Positions 504 to 41,600 of a DNA stretch of 64,000 nt are shown piece by piece. Source of the DNA: Antedon mediterranea (taxonomy: Eukaryota > Echinodermata > Crinoidea > Comatulida > Antedonidae); the NCBI RefSeq assembly GCF_964355755.1, contig NC_092676.1:20194288-20258287 (forward strand). The letters are read 5' to 3'. The stretch's first letter is position 1. The number at the start of each line of letters is the position of its first letter. The position numbers and the translations under genes are program-made. The notes below the pieces were generated by a model, which had not been told where the DNA came from, did no database searches, and saw nothing but the letters and a program-made list of their open reading frames with translations.

Positions 504-640
504 AAGCTCTGTCAACACTATCAAACTTTATGTGACGAACATCTGATGTGCCCATATATGGACATGACATCATATCACTACCATATTTGGTCATATTACA
601 CTTTTTATGTCAAACTAGTTTGATAGTGTGAACAGAGCTT
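504..640. mobile_element. MITE, AAGCTCTGTCTACAC family, copy B
   Basis: A 137-bp element with ends AAGCTCTGTCAACACTATCA and TGATAGTGTGAACAGAGCTT. Its right end lies 20 bp from the last base of the GPLD1 exon 661-854, just inside that exon's splice donor. Confidence 0.85.
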
Positions 641-660
641 AACTGATGCATTTATCTTAC

Positions 661-3600
661 TTCCAGTATCAACTCCAAGAACAAGAATATCACTTCCATC
701 ATTGTACAGGTCACCAACAGCCATAGAAGATCCCAGCTTATCAAATGCACTTTCACCATGAAGACAGAACACTGGCTCGCTGATGTTCTTCACATCGTAA
801 GCAACAATGCGACCTACACTCTGTGTGTCATTATCGGAATGAGGGCAGCCTTCACTGTGGGTAAAATAAAGATCATAATAATTCTAATGGTAGACATGCT
901 ATTTTTACGGCGAAATGAAGAAAAACTATTGATATAGTATATTATTCAAACTATAAGTGGACTGCGTAAGGTTTATATTTTAACCTTACAGTCAAGAGAC
1001 TAGATTAAACTTAATAGGATTTGCGAGGTGTTTTCCCAAATGATCGTACCATAAAAACGGTAATGGGCATGTTTTATAACCTTACAGCCAAGAGCCAGAA
1101 GACAGCTAGATATTCCAACTTACTTCCACAGGTGAAATTAAATTTATTATTATTAGTACATAAATATTAACATTTTTATTTATAAACCAAACAATTATAA
1201 AAATAATATTAAGCTTACACAGAACAAATCCTGTATGTGGGTTGTGACACAAACAATAATGTCCTTCCCGACTTCATTTTCTTCAACTCTATACTATTCC
1301 CAAACCAACCATAATCCTAAGTAAAACAATACAAACAGTAACGAACATAGTAACTAGCATTCTTACATATCACTTTTAATAATAATAATACCACATGTAT
1401 TATCTTTGATGACACAAAACAAAAATATGCAAATACAAAAACAATTCATCATGGATCCTAGCTAGAAGTGGATACTTGTCTCACTAGCACCCAGAACAAA
1501 AGACAAAAAGTTTAAACAAATAATGAAAAGTTATCCGAAATTTAAAGACTGAATTAAAAAGTACCTGATCGCCATTGAGTGTAATATCCATTTCAATAAC
1601 TGACATGACTTGATGACCTAAACAAATATGAACAGTAACAATTATATACTTATTTTCTCTTAGTGCATCTTAAGTCAAAGAGAGAAACCTGAATTTATAA
1701 GCAAATATTTTGTGGAGACAAGAGGGTACATAGTTATAAAGTCAGTAACTTTTCCTTCATTTAAAAACATATACAAACAATAGATATACAATAGGAAAGG
1801 TAACCAAAAACAAGCAAAAAAAAACGTATATACCTTTAATTTTGTGGTTTGCATACAGGACATTGACCATGCCTCTTTGTTGACCCCCAGCAGATGCAAA
1901 TGGTGACCCAATTAATAGGTCATTATGTCCATCTCTATTCACATCTCCAACAGTTAATGTCCAACCCAAATTATAATAATCATTTGCAATATCCTATGAA
2001 AAATATATACACGTCAATAGGTCTTCACAACTTTTAACTTTAAATTGAGAGTTTGCAGTTTTGTTATTTTTTCTCTCTCTTTTGCAGGTCATGCCCCAAT
2101 TTTATGTCTTTTCAACATCAATACATACATTAAAATAATGCTAACAAACTGTAAATAAAAAAAAAAATCATTTTTGGCTATATTTTTTCTTTATTTAGGC
2201 CTATATATATAATTATATTTTTGTTTTAGTTATTTCTCTCATGTTTCTTATATTACACATATATCCTTTTGCTTTGAATTATATTTACTTACTTGCCCCT
2301 TGATAGTAATATTTGGAGAACCAAAATGTTTGCTGCCTCCTAGATAAATATAAACTTCTCCCTGTTAAATAAATTACAAATAGAAATAAGAGATTGCCAC
2401 CGATTTATAGGTCAGTGAGAGAGGAACTGGCTGTCACAATGGCAGATAGGAAGTTATGGAGGAATCTTATAAGTTCTGCTATGTCCCGGACTAAGTAAGT
2501 AAGAAGACATAAGAAACTTTATTATCTCCAAAAATCCGAAGAAATTACAAGCACTTGCAATCAAACATACAAAAAATAAATTGTTCATTTCATATATACA
2601 AACATTAGTGAATAATGTGAATTATATCATTTTATGTGATTGATTTGAACTGCATTGCGTAATTGCTACAGAATGAGGAACGACTTACATAATACGAGAA
2701 AGTTGTTGATCCAACAGAGGGCGCACTCACAACCAAGTCAGCGATTCCATCTAAATTTATGTCCAGTACAGCAAGTGCGGACCCAAATCGACCGTTTTTC
2801 TACAAAAGAAAAACATAATGGTTTGCGGTATTTGAAAGGAATATTGGCTTTTAATAAGTATTATAATATAACCCATTAGATTCAAACATGTCTACCTTTA
2901 GGCCAGTAATATGGGCATCAGCAGACACATCCAAGTCTATTTTTCCCTGTGGCAGTCCTTTACTTTTTGACCCATAGATGATGTAAACACGGCCTAGCTG
3001 GATGTTGTTGTTTATGCTATATCCAGGAGCTCCAACAATGAGGTCCATTACACCATCTCCATTAAGGTCTTCTGTTATAAAACTCCTGTATAATGGTTGC
3101 GTATTATTTTGTTAATACTTAAGATAAAGGTATTTATTCTGGTCCTCAAGCTTAACTGGAAAATGGGTGAGGAAATTCAAGTTAGGCTCTCCACGATAGC
3201 CAGCAATGCAGCGCCTACCAGATGAAGCGTTTGTAGGGTTTGAAAGAACCTCCGTTTTTTGTCCCTTTCAAACTAGAGTCCAACAGAAAAAGTGCTAGTA
3301 AATAGGCCTAACTTATAGGGAAATTATTTTCATCTACTAGGTACCGTAGGCCTAAATCTGTCATTTCTTTAATTTCTTCTGGTTGCACTTAATTTATGGG
3401 AAAAAAGAACCCCTTGTAAAAATCCCATCTATGGGCTTGATTATTATATTAATAATAATAGCTCCTGTACAGCTGCCATTTACTGTGAAAAGTAATCATA
3501 CAATAGTAGTTTTCTTACCATCCTAATTTGGCATATGCATTCTCAACATACAATGTCGTTAATGGTTCTTGATGATAACGTGTTTTCAACCTCAATTTTT

Positions 3601-6600
3601 GCTTTTTCATCATTTCTTTCTTTTGCAATGACTTCAATTTTCTCTAAGAAAAGATTAAAATATACAAAATCTAATGGTATTCTTCATAACATTGTAATTA
3701 TTATTATTGAGTCCCTGCCATGTTCGCATCCCTTCATTAGTGTTTCTATGAATGGATGTTGAGCGCTGGAACTCTAGTTGATCATACCCAGTACCGTTTT
3801 ACGATCAGGAAATTACCTCACATTGACATTGTTGAATAATATAAGCTCTTTGGAATTAATTCAACTAACTTATTTAAAGTGCATATGTTGTATTGTTTTT
3901 TACTTGCTTATTTCAGTCATCACCATATTTATTGTATTATCTGGAGGTTTAGACTTTAAGCCATTATGGCTTATCGTAATCTCCACACACAATCAAATGT
4001 ATTATTATTATTTATAAATGTATATATAGTGTAATATTTTGTGTGAAATAAAACTGAAACTAAACTAACCTTTAGTCTTGCGGAAGCACTGATGTAGACT
4101 CCTCGCTCAGTTCTTCTGTATTTTACCTCATCCAATGACAAACCATGTAAGTGTAGTCTGGAATGGAGACTAGTAGTTTTGATGTTGCGCTGGTTTTGGT
4201 AAACATCCGTTTGATTTGGACAGGAAATAAACAAAGTACTGTGTGGGATTTGACAATCTCTGCAATTTTAAAAATACTGATTATTCAATTCTAAATGTTT
4301 TATTTCGAAAATAAAGTTTAATCAATTATTAAATCAAACATGGAAAGCTTTATACTTTAAGCTACTGTAGGTCTACACTATCAAAATAGTTTGATAAAAA
4401 AGTGTGGTGTGCCAAAATGTAGTAGTGATATTCCCAAATATGGTAGTGATATGACATCATCATGTCCATATATGGGCATATCACATGTTTTTGACACATA
4501 AAGTTTGATAGTGTACTGTAGACAGAGCTTTATGAACAACACTGTTATTGCTTTTCCCTTACTCAGTTCCAGTCTGAAGCATCCAGAGTGACGTACGCCA
4601 AAGGTTAGTAGTCCAGACGGCCATGTCATCTACACCACCAAGAAAGTAGTCTTGGTAATCCTCTATAAGGAATGGTGATTTGGAAGCATAGCTTCGATAC
4701 AGCTAGACACAAAGACAAACAGATATGTTAAATTTCCTGTATCAAGAATGACAATTACACTGCCAGATCCAGGACCTTGAAATAAGGATAGTGGGGGGAA
4801 GCTGAACCGACTGTTCTATTGATCGAATTTTATTCTAGAATAACACAATTCCATATATCCAAAAAATAATGTAAAGAAAAATGAAAATAACACTAAATGA
4901 AGATTTCTCCCATTTAGTAAAGAGATTTGAGAAAGATACGGATACGGCGTAGTGCACAAGATCATTTACTACAGTGGGCAAAGGCACCTGGTTGGCAGTT
5001 TCATTTGACTGCTCAGGCACTGGGGCCCCTTAAGCTCTGAGGTCCCTGAGTTTAGCCACTGAGCGCTAATAGCCAGTGATTAGCTATCTTTTGCATTGTT
5101 TTTTTCTCAAAATTGTATGGATTAAGAAGCAGAATTATGTTCCAGATTTGTCCATAGCTTTATGTATTCATATAAACTAATATAGCACAGTGAAACTGAT
5201 ATTAAATAAATATATTACTACAAGTGAAAGTATATATCTATTTTGGATACTAATAACGTGTTGAAAATGTATTAATGACCTTGGTATGGTTTCAATACTC
5301 AGAATTACAGTAAAATATTTGCTAAGTTGAAACTAATAGAAATGTTACTTGATTATAAACGGAAGACACTAACCTTAGAAATAGCCAACTTCTCTCCAAG
5401 TCTATAAAATATACAGTACAATAAAATAATGAAATATATCAGTAATAAAACATCAGCTTTAGTTTTTAATTAAAGTCACAAGAATAAACACAATAATTAG
5501 AATGATATTGTCATGAGAGCCACTAATACACAAAAGAATAAATAAAGATGTAAAATTTATAAAATATATAGAGGTAGAGATGGATAGAGCTTTTAAGCCT
5601 GGTTTCAATAAAATCGCTACACGACAGAGCGTAGCAATTCTATGGAAACGGGGATCCCCGATCTATTTATCAGGGATCTAATACGCGAGCGCTATATATT
5701 CTTTGATACGCGTATACGATTCATCGCCGAAAAAATCGGCAAAGTTGAACATGTTTGAACTTTGCCGATTTGACTGCGATGAATCGGGGACCCTTCCCGA
5801 TTGCGTCGGCGACATCTGCGTGTGTAGCAATTTTAGTGGAAACGCTGTAGCGACTTTATGGAAACCAGGCTTTGATAAGCATATTTTTTAAACTGACCTG
5901 CCTAAGAACATTAGGGCACTACATTCCTCAATCAGCGAGGCATCCACTTTGTTAGCCTGATAGTACTCTTGATAGATGTTGACAAGATCCTGAATTGGTA
6001 GGTACCTAATAAAAAATAATAATAATAAAATGTCAATCTAATTTAGCGGTTAATTTACAAGACTTTTAAGCGAGTCACATAATTAACCTGGTCATTGGAT
6101 CAAACATGTATGTTTCCATAATTATGCAGCTAGTAATCAGTGCAATTACATTTTACATAATTATATGTAAAATAAAAATGTAAACAAACCAACCAAATTT
6201 CATTTGTATCTCATTGTTAAAATGACAATAAATAATATCGTATTGTATCGTACATTTGATCCAACCAGGTACCCATATACACATTATACATGGAAAGAGT
6301 CAAACATAAGTAAAGTGTCTTGTCTAAGGAAAAAAGCAATGCGACGAGCATTGGCCTCACATCATCAGAAGTTCAACGCTTAACACACTGTGTCACGCGC
6401 CCTTACAACCATTTAGCTATAGGAAAACAATTTCTTCTTCTCTCTTTATTATTTTGCTATCACAAGCAAAGTTAGGTTTGGGTAAAACTAACATGCAAAC
6501 ATTTAAACAAAATTTTCATGTCACTAACCATTCTGAGATCTCGCCTATATAACCAGTGTCAAATTCAAATTGGGCAACCACGTCACCTCCTATTAGGGAA

Positions 6601-9294
6601 ACAAGGAAATAAGATATTAAATAGTGTATACATTTATCTAAAGTATATGTGGCATTAAACTATCTTGAAATGTTTATTCATTATAATAAGTTATAAATGC
6701 ATTCATTGAAACAAGACTAATTGACAAACACATATGGGAATTCTCACGCGAGGCTTCGATGTGCTAATCTTACTAGAATGGTTGGTTAATCCTTTCAGAA
6801 TAAACTTGTTTACCTGTATATCATCATCATATTATTATTAATTTAATCATAGGCATATAAAGGCCACTTTACCTTCATCCCCTACAGGATGTGCTGCTGA
6901 AAATGATCCAAAGAAATTTACCTAAAAAAATAATTTAAATTAGTTATTAAAAGAATGGTTTTGTTTAAAGACCCCTTCCCTGCAATTTTGGACGTTTTTT
7001 GGAAAATAATACATATATATCACTTTAAAAACATTAAACCATGTCATTCCTTGTCTTAAATGTACGTTTTATGGTAAATTATGATAAAAAGTGAGAAACA
7101 ATGCACTACCTAAGTAGCTCGCGGCGATCGACCTCTCGTGGACGGTCTCAGGCCTAGCCTAGCTAGGCTTAGTTTTGTAGGCCTAGCTGGTAAACATCGG
7201 TAACGTACGAACATCGTACGCTAGCTATATACCTAGCCTGACGTTGTATAGTTGCTGCATTAATTGTCTTTCTATTTTTGCCAGACTCCGTTGATACAAA
7301 TTGGGGAAAACCCGGTATTTTCGCTGAAAAGTTAGGAGTCTTCCATTTGTTTTGGCTTCACGATCGATCGAAAAGTGGGCGAATTACAGGTGAAAAACAA
7401 CAATATCAATCCGCGCGCAATGCATTTTGGGATTTATAGCGGGCCGCTATAATTATTAAAATCGATTTATTTTTCACATTTTTAACCGTTTAAAGACGAA
7501 AAAAGTTATCGCAATAGGACCATATAGTATTATTTTTACATTAAATATAGTTTGTGATCTTAAATTAGATCTAAAAAACGTAGGGAATGGGGCTTTGATG
7601 AAAGTTTTAGTACATTTTCAGATACTATACGTGTTCAAGTCTAATGAGTATTTTTTTGTCAAACTCTACGCCATGTATAACATAACATGTACAAGCCATG
7701 GCTATGGATATAGCATGTTCATATCAACAATCTAAATATTTGTATTTCTTTAGTGAAAGGGAAAAGATTTTGTAAAGTTCTGAACTCTAACCTGCCCCAT
7801 TGTTGCTAGGAAACCTTGTTCAATTCCAAGACTATGCCATGAAATGTCTGCAACTTGATGCGATACAAACCCCAGCATAAAAACAACCAGTTTCTGTGTT
7901 TCCTATTTTTTAATAACAAACAAAATTACTCAAAATTCAATGGTTGGAACTATCATCTGATTTTTTACCAATCAGTGACTTAGAATCTATGTATGTTTTA
8001 TGTACTATATATAACATCAATAATAATATAATAATAATAATCGATATTTTTAATATATTTTTTTTTTTTTAAGCTGATCATTAGGGACGTCACAACAATA
8101 CAAAATGATGACATAAACAAGTAACAATAAAAATTAAATTAACATATAATTCATAAAGATAAACAAAATATTAATATAATATAGTAATAATATAACATAA
8201 ATATAAGGTACTGTATATTTGTTCTACAAATATACTCACTGTATCCCATGGTTGTGGATATGTGTTTCTTATGTAGTTGATTGTCACGTTTAGGAATGGT
8301 GCCCAATGGGTGTCTTCAGATACTCCATGGAACTGTCCTAAATCATAAAGGATAATAACCATACAAGTTTGTATTATACAGTAACTATATATAAAAAAAA
8401 TTCTAGGTCCCTGAATATGACACCATGGTAAGGAATCAAACTTGCGTATGAAATGGCACAGGTTCGATACCTGTTTGTGCTTCTTGCTTGTGTGTATTTT
8501 CACATGATCGTTTACCCTCTTTGCCTTGTCATTTCGATACAAACACAAATTTGTCAACAGCAGGCACAAAACAAGTATGGTGTGCTAAACAAAACTATAG
8601 AGTGGTAAACAAAAGTATAAAGTGGTAAACAAAAGTATGGTGCGCTGATTGTGGAATGAAATAACCTCTGTAGTTGGAGTGGCCATAGATTACCTGTTAT
8701 TTCTCCTGTTGTAAGGCATAACTGTAAAGTTAGTCAAAATTATATAAATATTGTTGATATGACACTAACCTTGGTGACACAATGAGTCATAAAAAGTATC
8801 TGGGTAAGGATTACCAGCTTGGAATGCATCTTGATGTGCAGCGATCAACTAGTACAGTACAAGAAACAAGGAAAGGAATATCAGAAACTCACAATTGTTT
8901 CAACTATCACCACACTACAAATTGCTGTTTGTATCTTAGCATTCAATGAACTGGTCCAATATTGCAAAAAAATTAGTTAAGTGAGATACACTGATTATGA
9001 ATTGTAGGCCTACTAAAAAAAAGGTCAAACATATTGAATCAATAATCCAATAATTACAAAATAGAACATCCAATTGCTGTTATGTGTTTTTATTTGGCTA
9101 GCCCTAGTCTACCACTAATACTGGCAAACACTGCATAGGTATGTTTAAAGGTTCAAAAGAAAACATTAGTTTAAAAAATTAATATATATATATATATATT
9201 TAATCGTTGTTAGTTTGTTAAGCTGTGCCACAAACCTTTCCATATTCTACTCCATATTGATCAGTGTATTCAAAATAACTTGCTGCCCGGTGAC
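661..9294 (-). CDS. GPLD1: Phosphatidylinositol-glycan-specific phospholipase D (partial, 18 exons)
   Basis: Secreted enzyme that cleaves GPI anchors. Exons, high to low coordinate: 9236-9294, 8770-8848, 8240-8337, 7792-7902, 6873-6921, 6529-6589, 5898-6005, 5374-5401, 4563-4702, 4070-4259, 3519-3643, 2896-3085, 2689-2799, 2293-2361, 1834-1993, 1565-1617, 1219-1316, 661-854; all junctions are GT-AG and phases agree, giving about 641 residues. The first seven exons encode the zinc-dependent phospholipase domain: GHRAASYFEYTDQYG, FHGVSEDTHWAPFLN, VSHQVADISWHSLG and AAHPVGDEGGDV match the human protein closely and carry its His/Asp metal ligands. From 3519 leftward come FG-GAP beta-propeller repeats with Ca-binding loops (DLNGDGVMDLIVGAPGYS, DINLDGIADLVVSAP, DVNRDGHNDLLIGSPF). 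The signal-peptide exon with the CG..TH.EI motif was not found, and the last propeller blades lie beyond the left edge (human protein about 840 aa). Several introns hold MITEs and a SINE. Confidence 0.93.
2490..2620 (-). repeat. Possible retroelement 3' tail in a GPLD1 intron
   Basis: An AACTTTATTATCTCC...GAAATTACAA segment resembles stretches at 24363-24620 and 32190-32620. The pattern is typical of reversed LINE 3' ends, and no coding part is visible. Confidence 0.25.
4359..4530. mobile_element. MITE, AAGCTCTGTCTACAC family, copy C
   Basis: The ends AAGCTACTGTAGGTCTACAC and GTGTACTGTAGACAGAGCTT share an extra inserted CTGTAG. The core is reversed relative to copy B. It lies 32 bp inside the intron downstream of the GPLD1 exon 4563-4702. 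Confidence 0.85.
5595..5872. mobile_element. MITE with AAGCCTGGTTTC ends
   Basis: A 278-bp element with roughly 27-bp imperfect terminal inverted repeats: AAGCCTGGTTTCAATAAAAT at the left, complemented by ATGGAAACCAGGCTT at the right. A second internal palindrome (AATCGGCAAAGTTGAACATG and its complement) gives a long foldback. It is non-coding and ends 25 bp from the donor of GPLD1 exon 5898-6005. Confidence 0.85.
6093..6405 (-). mobile_element. tRNA-derived SINE, family B, copy 1
   Basis: On the minus strand a degenerate tRNA-like head (TGATGATGTGAGGCCAATGC region) is followed by the body AGACACTTTACTTATG and GGGTACCTGGTTGGATC. The same order occurs at 38773-39034. This body is typical of SINEs widespread in deuterostomes and molluscs. 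It sits in a GPLD1 intron. Confidence 0.75.
6969..7594. mobile_element. TTAA-flanked non-autonomous element, copy 1
   Basis: A 626-bp sequence almost identical, in the same orientation, to 62130-62759. Left end AGACCCCTTCCCTGC; right end GGGAATGGGGCT, an imperfect inverted match. TTAA precedes the left end; the expected right TTAA reads TTGA here but is intact in copy 2. No ORF. It fills most of the GPLD1 intron 6922-7791. Confidence 0.85.
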
Positions 9295-11077: not shown

Positions 11078-12034
11078 TTAATTTTTCTTACAGTTAATGC
11101 CCAATTTTCTTCTGACTGTATTCTGAGTGAAGGCGTAAACAAACGGATTAAGAAGGCAATTGGTAAAGGCGACCAATGTCAAAATATTGGTATATATCTC
11201 AGGTTTGGTGGCGTAATCCAATTTATACATCGTGGAATAATATAAAAACAAGACCTGGTCAGGAGTCCAAGTTATTATAAAGACAACGGTCAATGCAAAG
11301 AACACCCACGTCATCTTCATTTTTGTTTTTGTCAGCGTTTCAGAAGCTTTACCTTGTTGATACTTGTCCATATTTCGTGTCATAGTGGTCATCGCTTGTA
11401 TTGTTCGATGATACGTAATCAGCAAGCATGTGATAGGAACTAGATAGGTAAATAGGAATATATTTATTCCCATTAAAAGTAACGCGTACTGCCAGTTAAA
11501 AAACTCACGACACTTCCCACAGTCATCAACCCTTCTAACAAACCAACCAAACATTTGAACCAAAACGGCATATATCCATGGAAACATTAAGAGAATATAT
11601 CGCTTTGAAGAAAATACAATAGACTTGCACTTAAAGGGAGTTGCTATTGCCCAGTATCGGTCCACAGCTATCATTAGTAGTCCCATCAGAGACGCGGTTA
11701 GAGACGTCCAGAACGGGACGTCCGTACCGTACACTCGACAGACAATCTCCATTGTAAGGCTCTGATCATAAACAATATCTGGCCGGGGAATCATAAGCAC
11801 TGATGATATCAAATCAGAAATCGCTAAGTTGCACACTAACTGATACGTCATCTTTGATCGAAGAGCCTTCGTACTGACGATAATAACAATGACAATTGCA
11901 TTTCCAATCAAACCGGTTATACCGAACAAAAGTAATATACAATTGTATGGGTGTGTAAAATCTACTGGTTCAGGGATAAATTCAGTGCAGTTAGCTGTAA
12001 AATTCCACATTGCTTCATCAGTGAAATTCGCCAT
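11078..12034 (-). CDS. Intronless class A (rhodopsin-like) orphan GPCR, 318 aa
   Basis: Seven-transmembrane receptor of the plasma membrane; ligand unknown. The N-terminus has three N-glycosylation sequons (NFT, NFT, NCT). Family motifs in order: GLIGNAIVI (N1.50), NLAISDL (D2.50), Cys before TM3 (VCRVYG) with a partner in the ECL2 VDDCGKC, DRYWAI at the end of TM3, TWTPDQ in TM6 in place of CWxP, and NPFVYAF (NPxxY) in TM7. The tail is very short and ends in CKKN. No Asp occurs in the central part of TM3, which argues against an amine receptor despite the DRYWAI sequence. It is a tandem duplicate of 13214-14185. Such intronless expanded receptors recall the lineage-expanded GPCRs reported from sea urchin; that comparison is inference. 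Confidence 0.95.
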   Translation of the reverse strand: MANFTDEAMWNFTANCTEFIPEPVDFTHPYNCILLLFGITGLIGNAIVIVIIVSTKALRSKMTYQLVCNLAISDLISSVLMIPRPDIVYDQSLTMEIVCRVYGTDVPFWTSLTASLMGLLMIAVDRYWAIATPFKCKSIVFSSKRYILLMFPWIYAVLVQMFGWFVRRVDDCGKCREFFNWQYALLLMGINIFLFTYLVPITCLLITYHRTIQAMTTMTRNMDKYQQGKASETLTKTKMKMTWVFFALTVVFIITWTPDQVLFLYYSTMYKLDYATKPEIYTNILTLVAFTNCLLNPFVYAFTQNTVRRKLGINCKKN

Positions 12035-13213
12035 GGTTATCTATGTAGGCCCAGCGATTGCAAAGCAAAGTTCTTCCAATCTAATATGTCGCTAATCAAT
12101 AATAGTCATACGATAAGATCAAAGACAATTTCAAATAGGAGCAAAAACAATTTAATGAAAACATTAACGATTGATTATGATTGATAGTTTATATCACTAC
12201 TAAATATTCGATACGTTTTTAACTAATTTAACAAAACATGGAGACTTTCTATGTTTTGTCAATCATTGGTCATTAAAAATGTGTTTTATTCATGACGATG
12301 AAGACAATATGTTATATTAATATTGGAATCTTTGTCTACAGTGTGTAGATCAAGGTATTTTTATACTAGAACTAATCAAGGTTTTTGTTTAAAACTAAAT
12401 TATATATTATGTTTCATTCAGAAACGCGCGGCGTCGTCACAATAGAAATAGTTCGCTATTTGTTTATCATTGGATTCTTTTATAATTCGTCGCTAAACAA
12501 ATTCATTTAGTATAACTCTCGTTGGTATTCTTTACCCATCACATTAAAACAAGATAGAATCAAGGAAGAGTGAAATTCACTTTTCCTTCATCGGATTGAA
12601 TCTAGGGCAGGATACTGTTGCAATTAATATAAATCAGATTATTATTGTTATTCACCATATGGAATGTATTACGTTTTGTTTTTAAGTATTTCGATTTATT
12701 GATTGTATGTTCCTAACTCAGATAGTTAATACAAACGTTGAGAAGCAACTGTCAGTAATAAAGTTTATTTGTATATGTGTTTATATATCTAACAGTACAC
12801 ACACTCACAGTAAGAAATTTGCGATTCAAACGGCGACCAAAAACGGTTAATATGTATTAACAGTATTTTCAAAGTATAATACTATATCTAAAGGTTTTAA
12901 GTTTATCACCCAAGGGCCTATACATTTACATCCTTGTTTTAAACCATGGGTCCATGGTTAAACCAAATAAGATTGAATAGAGAGATTGAAATGTTCCATT
13001 CATCGCAAATCAATACATTTGTATAAACGTGTATTAAATCTATCAAAATAATATTTGTTTAAGAAAATTCGGCATGTCTTCAACATTCTAGAAGTAAATT
13101 TATATTTATAGAACCTAAGTTTCTTCTATTTTTTAAATTCAGAATAAAGTCACAGTCAAAAACAGTCATTATCTCATATGGCATTTTTCACACGCTAGAT
13201 GTCAAACCTATAA
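12035..13213. other. Intergenic spacer between duplicated GPCRs
   Basis: The 12035-12600 part is the 5' flank of the first GPCR and aligns with the 5' flank of the second (14186-14560, resuming near 15605-15750), so the duplication included upstream DNA. A shared block contains CGCTAAACAAATTCATT and AGAGTGAAATTCAC. No other gene is visible. Confidence 0.7.
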
Positions 13214-14185
13214 TTAATCGGTTTGTGTTTTTGTTTTCTTGCAGTTAATGCCCAATTTTCTTCTGACTGTATTCTGAGTAAAGGCGTAAACAAACGGATT
13301 AAGAAGGCAATTGGTAAAGGCGACCAATGTGAAAATATTGGTATATATCTCAGGTTTGGTGGTGTAATCCAATTTATACATCGTGGTATAATATAAAAGC
13401 AAGACCTGGTCAGGAGTCCAAGTTATTATAAAGACAACGGTCAATGCAAAGAACACCCACGTCATCTTCATTTTTGTTTTTGTCAGCGTTTCAGAAGCTT
13501 TACCTTGTTGATACTTGTCCATATTTCGTGTCATAGTGGTCATCGCTTGTATTGTTCGATAATACGTAATCAGCAAGCATGTGATAGGAACTAGATAGGT
13601 AAATAGGAATATATTTATTCCCATTAAAAGTAACGCGTACTGCCAGTTAAAAAACTCACGACACTTCCCGCAGTCATCAACCCTTCTAACAAACCAACCA
13701 AACATTTGAACCAAAACGGCATACATCCATGGAAACATTAAGAGAATATATCGCTTTGAAGAAAATACAATAGACTTGTACTTAAAGGGAGTTGCTATTG
13801 CCCAGTATCGGTCCACAGCTATCATTAGTAGTCCCATCTCAGACGCGGTTAGAGACGTCCAGAACGGGAAATTCGTACCGTACACTCGACAGACAATCTC
13901 CATTATAAAGCTCTGATCATAAAAGATATCTGGTCGGGGAATCATAAATACGGATGATATCAAATCAGAAATCGCTAAGTTGCACACTAACTGATACGTC
14001 ATCTTCGAGCGAAGAGCCTTCGTACTGATGATAACAACAATGACAATTGCATTTCCAATTAAACCGGTTAAACCGAACAAAAGTAATATACAATTGAATG
14101 GGTCTGTAAAATCCACTGGTTGAGGAATAAATTCAGTGCAGCTAGCTGTAAAGTTCCACATTGCTTCATCGGTGAAATTCGCCAT
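13214..14185 (-). CDS. Intronless class A orphan GPCR, 323 aa (tandem paralogue)
   Basis: Nearly identical to the 11078-12034 receptor, with the same sequons and GN, LAISD, DRYWAI, TWTPDQ and NPFVYAF motifs. Differences cluster in the N-terminus, in the start of TM3 (TNFPFW against TDVPFW) and in TM6/TM7. The C-terminus reads on to KTKTQTD because the other copy carries a small TTAA-containing insertion that creates an early stop. The first ATG after an in-frame stop was chosen, and it aligns with the start of the paralogue. Confidence 0.95.
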   Translation of the reverse strand: MANFTDEAMWNFTASCTEFIPQPVDFTDPFNCILLLFGLTGLIGNAIVIVVIISTKALRSKMTYQLVCNLAISDLISSVFMIPRPDIFYDQSFIMEIVCRVYGTNFPFWTSLTASEMGLLMIAVDRYWAIATPFKYKSIVFSSKRYILLMFPWMYAVLVQMFGWFVRRVDDCGKCREFFNWQYALLLMGINIFLFTYLVPITCLLITYYRTIQAMTTMTRNMDKYQQGKASETLTKTKMKMTWVFFALTVVFIITWTPDQVLLLYYTTMYKLDYTTKPEIYTNIFTLVAFTNCLLNPFVYAFTQNTVRRKLGINCKKTKTQTD

Positions 14186-14658
14186 GGTTATACTTATCTA
14201 TGTAGGCCTAGCGATTACAAAACATGAATTCTTCAAATTTAATATGTCGCTAATCAATAATAGTCATACTATAAGATCAAAGACAACAATTTCAAAGAGA
14301 AGCAAAAAACATTTAATGAAAATTAACGCTTGATTATGATTGAAAGATCTAGCCCTAATTATTCTAGTTTACACTAATCAATATTCGATACGTTTTAAAC
14401 TAATTCACCAAAACATGAAAACTTTCTATGTTTTGTCAATCATTGGTCATTTAACAATTTCTTGTATTCATGACAATGAAGACAATTGTTCAAATAATAT
14501 TGGAATCTTTATCTACAGTGTAGATCAAGGTATTTTTATACTAGGACTAATCAAGGTTTTTGTTTAAATAAATAAAGTAGATATGTTTCTATACAATATT
14601 CTGAAACGGCGTCTTCATAATAAAAATAGTTTCCATCATAAACCATCAAATTCAACAC

Positions 14659-28878: not shown

Positions 28879-31800
28879 ATGGCGGTCGCCGTAGACAAAT
28901 TTGACTTGTTGTTTGACGAAATTGTCCGACAATTTACGTCATTCAGTGAAGCATTTGCAATTGTAGGAGCAATTTACACCACACATAAGACATTTAATAT
29001 TATACATGGATGTTACAGGGCAATCTATGTGTATGGTGCACCTAGATTAAGGGGAAGACCTAACCTTGTAAGCCGGTATGGTCGGTGGGCACGTGAGTAC
29101 TCCATCCAGCTAGGCTAGTGCCATGTCCGCTGCTCTCTCTTCGCTTAAATGGCATGCAGAAATAATAGGAAGGACGGATATCCGGAAGGACTAGGCCTAG
29201 GTCCTCTAGAATTAGCCTACCGTAATATTATAATATAGCCCAAGGTGCCAAGTGTAGCCTAGAAATACTAAAGCGTCGGAGCTGGAAATTCTGGAAACAT
29301 TTTTCAGAATATTATGTATTATTTTATTACAATACAATTTAATAAATTAATTTACAGACAGGTATAGATAGGCTAGTGGTAGTAGAGATATTAGATAGTG
29401 AAATATTATATCAGGTGAATCCAGAATGTTGAAATAGGGGAGGAGGTGAATCCAGAATGTTGAAATAGGGGAGGAGGGGAAAGTATGTTTTTGATGGTGC
29501 ACAACCGATCCCCCCCCCCCCCCCCTTTGTTAGATCCACCTATAAATATGCAGGCCTTATTATTGATGAGGCTGTTTTCAGTTTGTCAATCATGCATGGA
29601 AGTCAACCTAGGTTTATGATACAATCTTCCTATCGGTGCATCTAGGGCCTTGCATCTTAATTCTATTGTCTCTCTACAAGGGGACGAGGTGAACCGTGCT
29701 AGTAGAAAACTGTAAAAATGCAACTTAATCAATAACATGGTTGTACTAAATGCACAGTTGACCCTGATCACCAACCCACTGCGTTCATTTCCCATTTGCA
29801 AAACTTGGTTAATTTAAGTTTAATACTAATAAATTGCAAAGTTTTTAATTCTTTATAGTGGTCACAGGATGTACAGATGGTATAGGGAAATCATATGCAC
29901 AGGAACTTGCAAGTTATGGGATGAATATTATTTTAATTAGCAGATCAAGTGATAAACTACTTAAATGTTCCGAAGATTTAGGTAAGACCACTTATGCAAT
30001 CTAACAACACTGAGCTCACCTTGTCAAGATAGGAACTCATAACAGTCCTTTGATCTTATGTCTGGCTGCGACAAATACCAACAATTCTGTAGTACTATGT
30101 ACATATTCTCTGTGGCGCGTGTTGTGGCACCAAGGGGTGTTGAACTGATTGTGTCGCAGCCAGAGATAGACCCTTTGATCTCCAGAGCTCAGCATCCTGT
30201 TGTTAGATTGCCTGGGTACTGTAAAACGTTGTGCTTTTATTAAATTACCAGTTTGGCTTCGTTTTGAGCTGCAATGTATCGGTGCACCAAGTACAATATT
30301 AATTCTCAGATGGTAGATTATGTGCTACATCACAATTTTTATTCCCTAATTTGATCATAGAGAAATACATGAAGAAATAAGTTATTTCTTTACGGTTTAA
30401 TTAAAATCATCAACTAGAACTATATACAGTATTTATTTCCATCTTTTATGTGATAACAAATTCAGTAGATCACAGTACTGATTTAAAAATTTGATCACAG
30501 ATATACATATACATTACACAGCAAAAACTTAAAAATATTCAACAACATGAAATCAATAGAGCATAACAAACATTTATTCATGTTCATTGGTTGATTTCTG
30601 CTGCGAAATGCCAACTATGCTACATTTAATACTAAGTGCCGTTGCTGCATGAGCAAATTAGAAAACGATAAATTTTATTTTTAGAAAGGCAATTTGGAAT
30701 TGAGACGCTCACAGTGACAGCTGATTTCAGTCAGGGACGTGCCATTTATACTATGATTGAACAAGAAATAAAAGACAAAGAAATAGGAATTTTAGGTAAG
30801 ATTGTTCTTCCTACAAATTCCCCTACAAATAAAGGGGAATTGGTTGGACAAATTATTGTTAGTGCTAAGTTACATTTAAAAAAAACCACAGCATGCATGT
30901 TAAAAAAAACCACAGCATACATGCATTATAAAAAACCAGAGCATGCATGCATTAAAAAAACCCACAGCATGCATGCATTAAAAAAAACCAGGGCATACAT
31001 GCATTTAAAAAAAACTGAGCATGCATGCATTTAGAAAAAAAAAATGAGCATGCAATATTACTATGACAAAAAAAATAGTTTGTCTTGTTTGTTTTTTCCC
31101 TAGTGAACAATGTTGGTGTAATGTACTATCCTGAAAATCTGCATGAGATGAATATGGATCGAATTTTCCAATTGATTAACGTTAATGTCACTGCTGCAAC
31201 TGTTGTAAGTTGGGAAACCGGGTAGAAAAAACCGTTTCATTTGGAAATGTGATTCTGCCTGAAAAACATTATTGCCACTTCAATGGATTGAACTGTATTA
31301 ACCTGTAATTGATAGTATTTCAGTTTGTTGTAGGTTATTGATGCAATTTATGAGCCCACAGAGCTGTTAAAGACCATATCCGTTCTGTTAAGAGGGAAGT
31401 GTCTATCTACACGGTAAACTGTGACAACAGCATGGCCAACTGTGTGTGTAACCCACATCCATATCCCTTCTGTATAAGAAGAAAGTGTCTATCTACACAG
31501 TTAACTGTGACAATATAGCATGGCCAACTGTGTGTGTAACCCACATAGCTGTTAAGGTAGCACTGACCATATCCCTTCTGTAGAAGAGGGAAGTGTCTAT
31601 CTACACAGTTAGCTGTGACAATATAGCATGGCCAACTGTGTGTGTAACCCACATAGCTGTTGAGGTAGCTCTGACCATATCCCTTCTGTATAGGAGGGAA
31701 GTGACTATCTACACGTTCAACTGTGACAATAGCATGGTCAACTGTAATTCATTATTTTCTATCAGCATAGTTGACCCTGGCTAGTTTTCTGTGCTAACAG

Positions 31801-33434
31801 AATAAAAGCACATGCTTGACCTTCGATAAAAATTAAGACATTAGACGCACGGTTGACTGTAGGAATAGGTAACAATGAATTTGATGCATGGTCGACAAAG
31901 CCAATTAAGCTTATATTTTCCACCCGGTTGACCGTACAAATAGCCTCATCTACATAGAAGAGAATATGAGGACTGAACACCTGAAAACTGCTAGTTTGAA
32001 ATGTAAATTCATTTTTTCAGATGAGTCGTATTGTATTGCCCCAAATGGTGGAACGAGGCAGTGGAGCCATTGTGAATTTATCAGCAGCAACGTCCATTAG
32101 GCCAAGTCCGCAACTAGCAGTATATACAGCTACTAAGGTAACTTAAACATAACAACAAATTGTATAGGCTGTATTCAATATTATAATACAATTCAATTCA
32201 ACATTTATTTCAATCAAAATCAGCAAACATTTACAAAAAAAATTAAAAAAACAACAAATTTGGACGAAAGATCACATGAAATCTTTATTTGTTCCACATA
32301 TAAAAATATACATGGAAAATTGTTTTCCTCGACAGAAATATGGTAAAACAAACAAAGCATTCACAATACATCATACACAACAATAATAAAATGACAGTTT
32401 ATAAGAAGATTCATAAAAACATACATCAATCTAATATAAAAGTTATATTTAAAATTATATTCCCATTTAAAAACTGTAAAATCTAAGATCTAACATTCAT
32501 TGAGACTCGCATGCCAAAAAAAAAAAATTACATAAAGTATATAAGCATAAAAACAATTTAACAATTACGCTTAAACTTAAGATTAATTCTTGTTAATAAT
32601 ATTCTCTCTCTGATGAGGATATTCCCACATGTTTAGGTCTAAGACACATCAGATGCTGTCCATAAAACTTAATTTAGATACAGTATCGACTGTGGGAAAA
32701 TTGTTTTGGTTGACTACAGACATGTACTCTTTCCAGACTTATTTAGATTATTTGGCCCAAGCGTTACAGTATGAGTATGCAGACAAAGGAATAACGGTGC
32801 AGAGCCTAATGCCATGCTTTGTGGCCACCAAGACATCACAATATGGTGGTGATGTTCAGAGTCCAGGCTACTTTATACCATCAGCCAGCCTTTATGCCAA
32901 AAGTGCTTTGCAAACACTAGGTGTGACTAGCAGAACGACAGGTTATTGGCCTCATCAACTACAGGTAAGCTTTTAATTTTAATAACTTGCGATGATCTTT
33001 ATTACCTAAGCACAGTAGAACCTCTCCTTTGGGACACCTCAATTCTGGGACACTTAACTCAGAAACGAACGACGGCAAATTATGTTTTACACTACGACCA
33101 ACCTTTATTTATTGGACATCCCTATTATAGAGACACTTCCCGAAGTGTCCCCTTAATAGGTCTTTTTCTGTATTCCACTTTAGTTTGGGAGATAGAATAA
33201 AAAGCACTTCTTTGAATAAAGGTCACTAAAACATTATAAACTGTAACCCCAATTCAGGTCAACCCAAAGTTAGTTGCAACTTGATGGTGGACCAAATTGA
33301 TTTTAATATTATTTCTTTTCTTGTAGTTTTACATTGTAGAAATGTTACCAAAGAGTGTTTGGCTATGGTGCACCAACATAGTCAACAGTGCAATAAAGAG
33401 GAAGATTAAAGCTGGACAACAGAAGAAGAAATGA
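28879..33434 (+). CDS. HSDL1: Hydroxysteroid dehydrogenase-like protein 1, complete, 7 exons
   Basis: Short-chain dehydrogenase/reductase orthologous to HSDL1. Exons: 28879-29092, 29859-29981, 30685-30795, 31104-31204, 32021-32137, 32737-32964, 33327-33434; 333 aa (human 330), all GT-AG and in phase. The N-terminus MAVAVDKFDLLFDEIVRQ matches human MAAVDSFYLLYREIARS. The cofactor motif TGCTDGIG (about 74-81), the NNVG motif in exon 4 and SAATSI in exon 5 are present. The active site is YTATK, Tyr218/Lys222, whereas human HSDL1 has Phe at this Tyr position. The C-terminus ends in a basic GQQKKK tail. The first ATG of the exon was chosen because it aligns with the vertebrate start. Introns carry minisatellites and a foldback repeat. 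Confidence 0.95.
29400..29525. repeat. 31-bp duplication and C-run in HSDL1 intron 1
   Basis: GGTGAATCCAGAATGTTGAA with its flank is directly repeated, and a run of about 17 C follows at 29508-29524. Confidence 0.8.
29996..30212. mobile_element. Foldback element (GGCTGCGACA family), copy 1
   Basis: Ends GCAATCTAACAAC and GTTGTTAGATTGCC are inverted. Internal TCTGGCTGCGACAAA and TGTGTCGCAGCCAGA are also inverted, so the whole 217 bp can fold. Related copies are at 36653, 41691, 45608 and 51460. Confidence 0.8.
30878..31055. repeat. Minisatellite, about 22-24 bp units
   Basis: Seven degenerate units of AAAAAACCACAGCATGCATG plus GCATT in HSDL1 intron 3. The ORF running through it from exon 3 is intron read-through. 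Confidence 0.9.
31371..31745. repeat. Tandem repeat, four units of about 85-110 bp
   Basis: Units begin ACCATATCCCTTCTGTA and include GTGTCTATCTACACAGTTAA, AGCATGGCCAACTGTGTG and TAACCCACATAGCTGTT. Non-coding, in HSDL1 intron 4. Confidence 0.9.
32190..32620 (-). repeat. Possible reversed LINE 3' end in HSDL1 intron 5
   Basis: ATTCAATTCAACATTTATTT followed by ACGAAAGATCACATGAAATC and AAATCTTTATTTGTTCCACA looks like a reversed retroelement 3' UTR. No coding region is visible. Confidence 0.3.
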
Positions 33435-34688
33435 TCTGAAAATAATCAACAACTTCAAGAACCACTCAAAAATGCTTTTTTCTTGGCAAAATTATTTTAT
33501 TTTGTATTGTAGTATTTGCTTTTTTTGTTAGAACGATAGCGCCTACAGTTTTTAAGTTATCATTCTGTTATTATTTTTCAGTGTAAATAGATATATACTT
33601 GCGGAACATTCAATTCAAGAAAATTGGTTCAAAAATTTGCATTCTTTTAACATGAGCTGAAATATCAAAATGGTGCCCTCTATGGCAATATTCTGCCAAG
33701 TACTTCACTCAGTTTCTGAGTGCTTCTTGGTGTTATTGTAGAAGAGCTTATGTAATCACTAATCAGGTAGATGCAGCAATAGATCAAATAGCATCAAAAT
33801 GATTGTAGCGTAAGAAAACCAAAATGTTCTCAACCATACTTTATTACCTTTTTGGAAGCACATAATGTACTGCAAACCTAACTTTACTAGAATTTAATTT
33901 CGCATACAAGAGCATTTTTAACAATAATTTAGTTGTTGCAGTGAAGAGTCCGATATAAGCCTTGCACATCTACATTATTAGTGTAGTAGTCCAGTAAAAT
34001 ATCACATTCACCATTGCATAACGTTAGTAGTTAACGAGATTGTCAACGTAGGTTCTAGATGGCCATTTGGCTTAATTTATATTTATATAGTAGCACACAG
34101 TGCTATACTCCTGTTTTAGGGAATCTAAATGGCCCTCCAATCCTGGAGGCCTCTGGCATTTTTAGCCTTTTTCAACATATTTTAATGCCAGTTTGTTACT
34201 CTTGACACTGCTCAGGAGCCTGTAAGCTACTGTAGTTTACATTTTTGGCAGATATTTATTCAATGATATTTTGTTTTTGCAGTAGTATTTTAAAAGAATT
34301 ATGTTTGTCTATTAAGTTTTTTAGGTATACATTAAATGTATTCTACTATTAATGTATCATATTCATGATTTTTTTTCAAAATTTATTTGTCCTTTTCTAT
34401 TATCTTTTAATAATTTATTTTCTTTACATTTCCCTAATCCTTACGACACAAAATCTGCAACTTCACATCAAAAGAGAATTCTTAAAAGTTGTAACGATTC
34501 AATTACTGTATCCTTTGAAAAACTTTTGGTACAGGTTGACTTTTAATCATGAGCACATCATTTACAACCATTACTCATTGGTTTTGCGGTCGTTCAAGCG
34601 CATTCACAGACCATTATAAGCTAGATTAAGCATGAATGAAATATATATAAATATATATTTCCTCCATGGATTAAGTTATCATATTAAT

Positions 34689-35057
34689 GAGAGTGAGTGG
34701 CCGAGCGGTTAAGACAGTAGAATCATAATCCATAGCCATAACATTGGAGGTTCGAGGCTCACTTCCTCCATGGTTCTTGCAGTAGAACAAGACTTGGATA
34801 ATGACTATAAACCATAGATCTAGTGTACACATATTATTACTTGTGTCACTTTAAAGAACCTACTACATCTTTCGACACAAGTAGGGGGTTTCCCTGGTGT
34901 ACTAGTTCACACACTGAGCCACTGTCGTGGACAGACGTAATGGTGGCGTAGTTGGCTGCCGGTGACACGATGTGACTCTTGGAGGAGAAGACAGTTGTTG
35001 AAAAGGTGTAATATCCAAGTCCACATCGCTCTGATCTTCACGAAATAGCACTATATA
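34689..35057 (+). mobile_element. tRNA-derived SINE, family A, copy 2
   Basis: The head GAGTGGCCGAGCGGTTAAGA (A box TGGCCGAGCGG) and GGTTCGAGGCTCAC (B box) are typical of a Ser/Leu-type tRNA. A GTAGAACAAGACTTGG body follows, ending in GCACTATATAAATG, a tail often seen in deuterostome SINEs. Confidence 0.85.
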
Positions 35058-35654
35058 AATGTCAAATTATATATTATTTAAATTAATTGACAGACAAATT
35101 TGACTATTACCATGTTTTATTGGTGTTTTTTATTGAATTATCAGTACATTGATATTTATGAAATGCATTGGGTGTACAAAAAGAAAAAATAAATTATGCA
35201 AATCAACCGATGAAACAATAAATTATGCAAATCAATAGACAAAATGTATGCAAATCACATGGTTACGAGTTTCCATTGAAAACTCTACAATCTGTGATAT
35301 TTGCAGTGGATGTTGACAAGTGTGACAAAACCAAAGATTTCAACACCATGAAAGTGATCCTTACCAGCACTACTGAAGTTAAATCCATTCATAAAAATGT
35401 GCATAGGAATTTGAATACCCATTGAAACCGTGTATATTTTATGCCATAAATTTTATTTTGTTTTACCTTTAAGTATAACTTTTATTTAAAAAAAAACAAA
35501 AATATTATATTGAGTTCATTTTTTTCAATAAGCTCATCAACATTGTGAATGAATTATAATGAAAATTACTACTATGAATCAAATTTGACGACATGATTTC
35601 TCTATCTTATATATATATATATATATATATATTATAACATTTCATAGAAATCAC

Positions 35655-35660
35655 TTTATT
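35655..35660 (-). promoter_or_regulatory. Candidate polyadenylation signal of the HSD17B12-like gene
   Basis: AATAAA on the minus strand, about 37 bp beyond the stop codon; hexamer and position only. Confidence 0.4.
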
Positions 35661-35696
35661 ATTTTATTAAAGGTGGTTACACATCAGCAGTGAATA

Positions 35697-38600
35697 TTAA
35701 TTTGTTTTGGCTTGTTTCTTCAATGCTCTGGCACGAGTACTTTTAAGAATGCCCATGGTGTTCTTGGTCACCATGCTTTCAGGTAAACACTCTAGAACGT
35801 ATTTCTGTAGAAGGAAAGAAACAAAAAAAGGTAAAAATCTAAATCTAGGTATAAGATGAGATCCTTCTGGATCCAATGCCCTGGATCTACAATTATATGG
35901 ATCTAGCATTATTTGGACCTATAATTATCTGGATCTACTGTTATATGGATCTACTGTTATCTGGATCTACCATTATCTGGATCTACCATTATCTGGATCT
36001 ACCATTATCTGGATCTACCATTATCTGGATCTACCACCGATTTCCAATTAAAAAATGTTCCAAAGGCTTTCCTTAATGGGTGAGAACACTGGTCTTAAAT
36101 TAGGTGTTATTTTATTTGCTATGTTTAATAATTACCTGCAGAGCATGGGAAGTACATCCCATTGTCAAACTCTCCACACCAACTGTTCCCAATGCACTGC
36201 TTACATATGTGTCTGGGCTTGGAATTGTCCAAGACTTTTTCTTTATCTTGCTAAGTTTTGTTGTCACGAAGTAAGGTGCAACACACTTTAAAAAGATTTT
36301 TAAAAAAAATTGGAAACATCTTTTTATTTATTTAAATAAATTCAAAATTACAACCAACAACAAACACATCCTAAAAAAGCTACTTTTTATTCCATTCTAA
36401 ATGATCACATGATCCCAATTCATAAATGAATTATCAGCACAAAACACACTTTATATGATCATATGCAAATGAAACAGAAGAACTTGAATATGTTATCAGT
36501 AATCCGATCCACTCAAGCATTATGACTGACTATGGGTTATCAAAAATATCTTTGAAGCTATTGTCTTTTGGAAATAAACGAAAATAAACCAAATCGCATG
36601 GGCACATTACACTTTTCTTGTCAAACTAGTTTGATAGTGTAGACAGAGCTTTACAATAGGATTATGAGCTCCGGAGATCAAAGGGTTTATCTGTGGCTGC
36701 GACATGATCCCCTTAACAACACTGTGCCACAGAGAATGTACATAGTACAATACTGTTGATGTTTTGTTGCAGCCATACATAAGATCAAAGGACTGTTACA
36801 AGTGTCCTGTTGTTAGATTGCCTTGATTAGTTTGTGGGATCATATTCCAACATAATTTATATCAACTTACTTGAACTACAATGCCTTTGTCTTGATACTC
36901 ATAATGGAGGCATTGTGATAGAAAGTTTACATATGCCTATGAATAAAAACAAAATACTTTAATATAAAAACTGGCATCTTTCTGTTAACCCTTTCACTGC
37001 GGAGCGTTATTCCCACCTCTGTGCATAATATATATTTAAGAAAAACATATGATATTTTAATTAATTGCAAAAAAATACTAATTGAGATAATTGTGTAATT
37101 ATTTTTGTGGTGTGTGATGGGCAAAGGGTTAGTCTACAGTTAGGTATTAAAAAAAAAGTAATTTGCATATTGATGACGTCATGTGACGTCATTACAGGTA
37201 TTTTGGATTTCGTTTTTTTTATCAAATCAATGATAAAAACTATATTTTCTATAAGAAATTCTTATGGAATACGTTTTTCCAACTGGATATTGATGAAGAT
37301 ACGTATAAAAAATAAAAATATAAAAAAAAATTTAATTATTTTTATTGTTTTATAAAAATTATGCACAAATCAAAGTTTTGGGTCAAAATCGTGAAAATAA
37401 TGACATTTTCGAAAAATTCCCTATAGTACAAAAACTAACTATTTTTTCAGAATTTTTTTTTTTTGCGTGTTGTGATAAACACCATGTTGCCCTATTGGAG
37501 CTGGTAAATTTGTGTTACTTTCAAAATGGCCGCCATTACGCTACTCAACACAACTTTCCAAGATAGAAATACTATTATATACTATACTATATATAATATA
37601 ACTATAGAGGGCGCATTATTTTCAAGACGATAATACAACTATAGAGGGCCGTTTTTTTTTGCTGGAAAATTTTTTTAATGACTTCCAAAAATATTCAAGT
37701 TCATCAAAAAAATACAGAGGGTGCTATATATTATAGGCAAATACGATTAAATCATTGTTTTGCCCATACCCGGTAATACCGGGTATACGTATTTCAACGA
37801 CGTCTGTTTATACCCGGTAGTACCGGGTATACGCAGTGAAAGGGTTAATTTTACAACTTAACACAACACCTGCATTTTGTATGGTGTGCAATTTTGGTGT
37901 GTGTAAACTCTGGCGAGTTGAAAGAGTTACTAGACAACCAAATGTTTTGTAATTTTTGTATTTTTTTAATGTCTTAATGTCACATAATAGTTATCAAATT
38001 TGAAGCAAAAATAAAAATTGCTATAAATTAGCAAACCGTCTTTTTATTTTCTATGGGAGTGATTTATTTTAACTGCAAAATGGTCTGATTTGATTAACCT
38101 TCATTTGTTCAAGTATTTGGGGGATAATACATCATTAACACATAGTACACTAAACACAGTTTTACCTTGGTTGCTGAGTAAAGAGCTAAAAGTGGACATG
38201 TTGATAAACCAGACGCGGACGACACATTGATGATTGCTCCTTTCCGCCTTTAAAGAAAAATTAAATTAAATTTACTCTACAGATCTAATAATACTAATAT
38301 ATTCCATATTTTTATAGTAGAGAATAGCAGTTAGTAGTGAATAAGTAGAGAGCAAGGGGAGGGGTTTAGAGAGCAAGAGGGAGGGGTTTAGAGAGCAAGG
38401 GGGAAGGGGGTTTGATGAGCAAGGGCAGGGGTTTAGAGAGCAAGGGGGAGGGGTTTGGTGGGAGGGTGTTAACAGATTAGCTTTTTAATTGAAATACTGT
38501 ACAATACAATCAGTAATACCAACAAAAGAAAACACACACAAACCTTGTTTCCATTTGTGGAAGACAAATTGCAATCATCTATAAATATAAAATGTATAAT

Positions 38601-41600
38601 GTTTAGGAATTAGTTTTAATATATAATAATTAATAATAATAAATTTAATCATTTATACTGTACATACAGTACAAGGAGAGGGAAGACAGATGGTGGAATG
38701 GTAAAGGAACCAGGATGGCATGGAGTCCAATACCTGCCTCTACAATTGTTGTTTGTGAACAGTGATACTACTGGGGCCATCTAGAATAAATGTTATTACT
38801 CGGTCATTTTTGGATCTAACATGTATGGAAATATACTTCTATAATGCAGCTAGTAATCAGCGTCAAGTTGTGTCTTGACCTAACCAGGTACCCATCTGTA
38901 CACCTGGGTGGAGAGGTAAATGTAAGTAAAGTGTCTTGCCTAAGGATAAAAGCAATGTGACAAGCATTGGATTCGAACCCATGATCTCATGATCAGAAGT
39001 CCAACATCTTACACACTGCACCACACGCCCTCACAAGTTTGCAAGAACATTCCATCACATCATTTAAAAACCCATCTTTTTTCTTTTTCTTTGTAATTTC
39101 TTTCTGTTTTTTCTCTCAATCTTTTGATTATATAAGCGCTTTATAAATCATTAACATTACAGTATATTAATATGAAAAATATTCAAAGGCCAAGTTTTTT
39201 ACCGGATATGAATCTAGAAGCAGCAAAATAGTACTTAAATTAAAGACTATGTTCAAAATTAGAGATTACATAACAATGTCAGTTGACCTCAATTATATTT
39301 AAAATGTTTTTACAAACTTCTCTGCACACAGGTGTCTATGTTTTGTACACACTATCAAACTTTGTGACAAAAAAATGTGATATGCCCATATATGGACATG
39401 ATGATGTCATATCACTACCATATATTGGCATATCACTTTTTTTTTACTAGTTTGATAGTGTAGACAGAGCTTAATGGTCTGCTTGCTATTAGTAGCTTTA
39501 TTTTTTTGCAATGAAAATAAAACATTAACAAATATCCTTTTAATGGTCGCAATCCGTTGTCTATCATAATCGAAGAAATATTTTAATGCAACTATTACGG
39601 TTTTGATCCTCGTAGCTATAATCACATGATGTTATTTTGACCAATCATGGTCTCTTATTTACATAGGTTATTCATATACTAAAGATAATAATCTTCTAAT
39701 GGTACTAAGATGCTTTCTATTTGAGATTTTGACAATATTCCATTTCATAAAGAAAACTTTCATTGAGATAAAAAAAGGAAGCATTTGATCCATTACTACT
39801 ATTATATAAAAATCTCTACATTAATTACAGATATGCATTTTTCTCCTGTCCTTCCCATTGTATTTTGTTTAATATCTAAAGTGCATTTCCAATCTTAGAA
39901 TATGAGAATGAGAGGATATTAAAATGTATATGAATGGTGATCTTTTCTTTAGTCAAATTTTTTAGATTTTTAAAATCAATTTAATTTATGAAATTAAAAT
40001 TAATTATTTACCTTTTTCACATGACCTTCATGTTAAGAATGAGGATGTACAAAATTAGGACACAAGTAGCATTAGATAGTTCTTGTTTATGAATAACCAA
40101 TTAGTCAGTAAACTAGATTGTATAGTATAGTAAACTGGATTAATAGATCAAAGTATTGAAAAAGTCATTTATACAATGATCACTCATCTTTATTTGACAT
40201 TGGACAAATATTGGAACAATAAACTATTTTTAATAAACAGGTAAAATGTTATACAACCATAGAGATAATAATCGAAGGCTAGAGGGAGTACTCGTGACTG
40301 GAAAGTGATTGCAACAGGAAGGGGAACCAACAAGATGGCGACAGTAAATCCGTTATTATAAATATTACGTTATGTATCATACGTGAGAATGTAAAGAATA
40401 CTTCTCACATTTATATGGTCAACACAGGTCGATTGCAGTTGTCATCTTCTTGGTTCTCTCCATGAAGAATCACTTTTTGAACTGCTAAAATTGGGGTCCG
40501 CCCTCTAGCCAATCTAATAAAAGTTCATTGTATAGAGTATCACGGTGTGACGTCACAACAAAAGAGGGCGCTGTATGGTTGCTAGCAAACCAAAAAATGC
40601 GTTCAACGCTACTATGTTGATAAACTGTAAAGATCTGTATTTGTATCAAATTATGTATCTTAGATTGATTTTTTAAAACTTAAACTGTAGTTGAAGAATA
40701 AATAGATTATTAAAAACAAATGTTTATTGATCTTTTGAAATTTTAGTTTGTTTTTATTGAAAATTATTAAGTTTTAAAATGACTACTTCAATAAGCCTAT
40801 TCCAAACCATTGGTGACCTTGGAGTCACTCAGGCAGGTTGAACGCATATTTGTGACGTCACACCGTGATACTCTATACAAACATAGTTCACTTACCATTG
40901 ACATGGACAAACAGTTACAGTTAAGCATATCAACAATTTTCTGTAGGAAAAATAAATCAAAATTCAGTGTTTATTTAATACAGTTATTTTCATAATATTT
41001 TTACACAGAAAAAAATATCTTTGCCTAAACGCTGTTATGAAGAGCTACACTGACATAGACCCCAATTACTAGAAGACTGCCTCTTGGATGCGACTGGCAT
41101 CAGTGGAAGGAACAAAACTGTACTGTACTGTAGACCCTAATTACACTTAGATTGGGCCAGGCTATAAGTCGGCAATTGGTACTGTAATTGTAAATACTCC
41201 AGAGTTAGGTCAACCTTAGGGCAGCCACTCAGATCTTGGGACCACCTCTCAAGGAGCTTATAAGTGGGCCAGCGCATGCAGTGAACTATGACCACTTGCT
41301 TGAGAAATGAAGTAATAAATTGTCAGTGTGTAAATATGGTCATACAGTATAATAATAATAATAGACAGGCTAGTGATATTAACAAGTTAACAACTGTGTA
41401 TTCGTTACCTGTTTAACATTTTCAAGCTCAAGGAAATAGTTGGGGAATGGATAGGACATGCCAACATTATTCACCAGTACCCCAATCTCTAAACCATCTA
41501 ACTGTGTTTCAATGTCACCGTAGATTTCTGGACCTTTACAAAAATCCACTGCAATAACACGAGTTTGCACTTTGTATCGGCTCACTGTGAATAACAATGA

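Follow-up and report, generated by a model that had tools for sequence, protein, structure and literature searches.

MITEs close to splice donors in Antedon mediterranea lie in pre-existing introns

MITEs lie repeatedly just inside splice donors in a region of the genome of the crinoid Antedon mediterranea. In this study, we show that these elements landed in introns that were already there. The donor-side pattern is mostly ordinary, and there is no evidence of intron creation by MITEs. We favour, with a probability of about 0.7 for the explanation as a whole, that ordinary cut-and-paste MITEs inserted in existing introns with a mild bias towards exon flanks and short introns, and that purifying selection acted at acceptors. 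The analysis concerns a stretch of 64,000 nucleotides (the window, C7:20194288-20258287) and, by tests based on pattern counts, the 354-Mb genome.

Elements, host genes and introns of the window

The main family carries the terminal inverted repeat (TIR) AGCTCTGTCTACACTATCAAAC at both ends and has seven copies in the window, A to G (F partial), the paired copies being 103-172 bp long. Copy B (504-640) ends 20 bp from the exon edge at 661, copy C (4359-4530) 32 bp from the edge at 4563, copy D (17357-17526) 23 bp from 17550 and copy E (21508-21634) 17 bp from 21652, where the donor reads GTATAT. Copy A (253-355), which matches the TIR, shares the intron 120-660 with copy B and lies about 165 bp from the donor after taking out copy B. 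The partial copy F (36599-36651) is not close to a donor, and copy G (39338-39472) is about 1.4 kb off the donor at 40895. A family 2 MITE (TIR AAGCCTGGTTTCAATAAAATCGCTACA; 5595-5872) lies 25 bp from the exon edge at 5898, and a family 3 MITE with a 31-bp perfect TIR (40528-40880) lies 15 bp from the edge at 40896 of an HSD17B12-like gene. An earlier note had placed copies B, C, D and E and these two other MITEs 15-32 bp off donors; on reading the sequence its coordinates hold, and the donors are real. A seventh donor-proximal case, absent from that note, is a family 4 MITE (TIR CAATCTAACAACA) at 29997-30210, whose two 13-bp termini are exact; a plus-strand HSD17B12-like gene has its donor 15 bp away, at 29982. 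Further family 4 copies are found at 36646-36820, 41692-41780 and 45603-45687, and one of these is about 50 bp off a donor.

The main-family elements are short, bounded by TIRs and dispersed in many similar copies; the genome contains 8,767 exact 23-nt ends, including some in tandem arrays. Among the best 40 copies scored, the other 39 show 84-88% identity to copy B. The flanking triplets are TWA-like: 10 of the 13 copies with identical 3-bp flanks have TAA, many others have TAA on one side and TTA on the other, and the apparent target sites are TTA/TAA (TWA). In their short length, TIRs, high copy number and TWA-like flanks the elements resemble PIF/Harbinger (Tourist-like) MITEs, from which they differ in that the two 3-bp flanks agree in only 13 of 36 intact copies. 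The tandem arrays of the main-family end at C1:410891-412383 and C1:1406558-1410627, with 42-bp and 92-bp periods, form a satellite built from the MITE terminus.

All six donors of the earlier note belong to minus-strand genes, which are GPLD1-like, ZIP and HSD17B12-like. In the GPLD1-like gene, exons 2293-3108 and 1832-1993 match FG-GAP PF01839 (E 2.5e-29); the zinc transporter gene matches ZIP PF02535 (E 7e-31) and the HSD17B12-like short-chain dehydrogenase matches PF00106 (E 5e-11). The Pfam matches supply domains only, and the names GPLD1 and HSD17B12 are those we presume to apply. Four of the six donor-side exons are called by our exon finder, namely 661-854 (the coding exon of the GPLD1-like gene that precedes the B donor, minus strand, score 18.7), 4563-4702, 5898-6005 and 21652-21862; the two missed are short.

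Several further features of the window were observed. In the ZIP gene, an 81-bp tandem unit at 23564-23929 yields several copies of the beginning of a coding exon (CLDPVDLFN). The 300-bp stretches 7009-7308, which lies in a GPLD1-like intron, and 62174-62473 are 98% identical, 55 kb apart. Five intronless GPCR-like ORFs are local duplicates (11081-14197, minus strand; 51784-61844, plus strand), and the one scanned matches 7tm_1 just below the cut-off. Two HSD17B12-like genes stand in inverted orientation (28900-33450, plus strand; 36100-43110, minus strand), and both hold a family 4 MITE in corresponding introns.

MITEs landed in pre-existing introns

Once the elements are removed, complete introns remain. 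On the minus strand, the GPLD1-like intron with copies A and B (120-660, GTAAGA..TTACAG) measures 541 bp and 296 bp without MITEs, and the intron with copy C (4260-4562, GTAAGG..TTGCAG) measures 303 bp and 130 bp. The ZIP transporter intron with copy D (17240-17549, GTAAGT..CTTTAG) is reduced from 310 to 139 bp, and the intron with copy E in the ZIP gene region (21424-21651) from 228 to 100 bp. The family 2 intron (5402-5897) leaves a residual of 214 bp. Without the MITE, four of these five introns are thus only 100-214 bp long. Since all five residuals contain stops in every frame, the family 2 intron included, and have lengths that are not multiples of three, they were never exon before. Moreover, the residual introns bear their own donor and acceptor, both outside the element.

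A second line of evidence comes from a paralogue. The plus-strand HSD17B12-like gene, a tandem paralogue, has an intron (31205-32020) at the phase-0 position of the family 3 intron, the junction following IVDMLNCNCLSMSM versus IFQLINVNVTAATV, and this intron lacks the family 3 MITE; the family 3 TIR occurs at 40528 and 40850 only. In this one case the intron is therefore present where the element is missing. In the minus-strand HSD17B12-like gene, the exon that follows the family 3 intron downstream was sought without success.

The earlier note had raised introner-like creation of introns by DNA elements as one explanation. Introners occupy the same span as the intron, whose splice sites they supply or recruit upon insertion (Gozashti et al. 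2022, PMC9860276). They are often derived from DNA transposons with TIRs and TSDs (PMC9860276), and our elements are alike in being repeated DNA elements with such features in many introns, close to one splice site. However, introners turn an exon into exon-intron-exon (PMC9860276), whereas here the intron is present without the element. Neither is the element itself the intron nor does it supply a splice site, as a residual intron of 52 to 1540 bp with its own splice sites and broken frames is left, and the paralogue keeps the family 3 intron without the MITE. We thus consider intron creation by these MITEs highly improbable. The shortest residual intron, C1:781k, was considered as an introner candidate and rejected, since even this residual breaks the frame.

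Distances to donors and acceptors

Six elements so close to donors had seemed more than chance to the earlier note, given introns of several hundred bp. This yardstick is misleading because those lengths count the MITE in; since the MITE-free introns are mostly 100-214 bp long, donor proximity is not rare. If insertion is barred from about 6 bp next to the donor and about 30 bp next to the acceptor, copies in the measured introns have a chance of 0.10 to 0.41 of falling at most 32 bp from the donor. Such proximity is seen in 4 of 7 main-family copies (P = 0.015) and, over all families, in 7 of 13 elements (P = 0.0003), with limit and element set picked post hoc and several of the per-element probabilities estimated by hand. 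The dense cluster in the window is probably a chance concentration atop a general trend.

Such a trend is real genome-wide for the main family, and to this extent the claim stands. CTTAC read outward from an element corresponds to a donor facing it, GTAAG to the wrong orientation. At 5-35 bp outside the main-family ends, CTTAC was counted 401 times versus 173 for GTAAG (binomial P 8e-22), which establishes a donor-side excess. An orientation asymmetry is expected with any intronic insertion, and the ratio therefore reflects donor proximity and does not by itself demonstrate targeting. As a control, a random AT-rich word gave 271 versus 196, an approximate ratio because the word includes its own repeats; the ratio for the MITE exceeds it (Fisher P 9e-5, gene density uncontrolled). 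The CTTAC count drops with distance, from the value at 5-35 bp to 328 at 36-66 bp, inflated by at least 13 from the 92-bp tandem array at C1:1.406-1.411 Mb (13 rows of which were removed), and to 244 at 200-230 bp. An open frame that resembles an exon and is backed by an acceptor (score of 6 or more) was found at 15 of 30 CTTAC loci at 5-35 bp versus 43 of 199 control GTAAG sites.

The acceptor side is similar at some distance. The counts at 36-66 bp are 428 for TTNCAG and 328 for CTGNAA, an excess of 100. This is comparable to the donor excess at the same distance if one considers that each word samples only part of the real sites, GTAAG covering 16 of 43 donors and TTNCAG 6 of 43 acceptors in coding-driven exon calls. 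The donor distances show no sharp peak, the 5-bp bins from 5 to 34 bp holding 14, 23, 11, 19, 9 and 12. For family 2 there is no genome-wide donor excess (7 vs 9).

These counts bear on a specific targeting of splice-donor flanks, for example by a transposase tethered to co-transcriptional or U1-associated chromatin. The donor-oriented excess at 5-35 bp and the seven window elements from four families at 15-32 bp agree with such targeting, but the comparable excess beyond 35 bp on the acceptor side, the lack of a sharp donor peak and the behaviour of family 2 argue against it, and we hold it to be improbable.

We also placed 73 distinct main-family copies, sampled without regard to splice sites, relative to called exons and compared them with noncoding TTA/TAA sites of long loci; a null from loci with 325-bp flanks was dropped, as it under-counts exons near locus ends. 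The exon finder is heuristic and custom-written, was trained on 2,287 codons of window exons and yields false calls. On the donor side, 5 copies were observed versus 1.9 expected at 4-35 bp and 9 versus 5.6 at 36-140 bp at threshold 14, and 7 versus 2.4 and 15 versus 7.9, respectively, at threshold 12. On the acceptor side at 36-140 bp, the values were 14 versus 5.3 at threshold 14 and 20 versus 7.3 at threshold 12. The strongest bins have P values of 0.003 to 0.04, uncorrected for two thresholds and several bins. The one zone without an excess is the final 35 bp ahead of acceptors, where 2 copies were observed versus 2.8 expected at threshold 12 and the deficit amounts to 1 observed versus 2.1 expected at threshold 14.

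On either side, exons are hence about 2-3 times nearer to main-family copies than expected, a value that is provisional because the exon finder is heuristic and the sample is small and drawn largely from one chromosome end, the majority of the short unselected loci lying in the first 4.1 Mb of a single chromosome. A called donor is this near in only 5-7 of the 73 unselected copies, a few percent. Both flanking exons were called for 12 unselected introns with a MITE (two are duplicate loci), and in these the element sits at a relative position of 0.06-0.64 from the donor, with a mean of about 0.44; their residual lengths are 52-946 bp with a median of 191, compared to 387 in MITE-free introns.

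Could uniform insertion in short introns, of which the close cases were listed, produce all this by pure chance and choice of examples? Residual introns of 100-214 bp in four of five cases, the uncorrected main-family P of only 0.015, family 2 without excess and the mean relative position of about 0.44 in unselected introns are in line with it. Against it stand the MITE ratio exceeding that of the random word, the fall of the CTTAC count with distance and the unselected copies lying nearer to exons than local noncoding TTA/TAA sites do. On balance, we judge chance and example choice less likely than not to be the whole explanation. A uniform intronic distribution, which the earlier note had named as its refutation, does not strictly describe the main family; most of the apparent donor specificity nevertheless vanishes. 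The target preference at exon edges, one of the explanations it had listed as possible, is weakly supported for the main family, on both sides save the last 35 bp before acceptors, and is absent for family 2.

A probable insertion bias with selection, and its meaning

In the reading that we favour, mild insertion bias with purifying selection at acceptors, the transposase would favour accessible gene-rich DNA, including short introns and exon flanks. Selection would purge copies that hit exons or the zone of branch point and polypyrimidine tract ahead of acceptors, and insertions just past about +6 of the donor may be tolerated. Insertion bias and selection together would leave the nearest surviving copies at donors.

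Mammalian intronic TEs offer a precedent. At very short range they show an asymmetry of donor over acceptor, which was ascribed to a donor signal of about 6 bp versus an acceptor signal of 20-50 bp (Zhang et al. 2011, PMC3088655). As in our data, the closest-in copies are found far more often near donors than near acceptors. However, mammalian introns are depleted of TEs at either edge, over the 50-100 bp next to the exon (Zhang et al. 2011, PMC3088655), whereas here a mild excess is seen at the donor flank and, beyond 35 bp, at the acceptor flank. Because the donor side is undepleted here, unlike in mammals, selection alone is insufficient and a target bias must be assumed. A GC step around the insertions was looked for and not found; GC is flat about the copies, which speaks against the favoured reading in that a feature at exon edges receives no independent support from it.

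The main-family transposase may truly prefer exon-flanking DNA, for example nucleosome-poor linkers beside exon-bound nucleosomes, and clearing of the acceptor side by selection would then leave MITEs packed inside donors. We put this forward tentatively, as a possibility with somewhat less than even odds.

Taken with mild insertion bias and selection at acceptors, the results mean that clustering of MITEs at donors can arise without intron creation, from short introns, an insertion bias to exon flanks and selection on the acceptor side. Should an annotated genome bear out the 2- to 3-fold exon-flank bias, this high-copy family would serve as a probe of exon-edge chromatin accessibility in a non-model animal.
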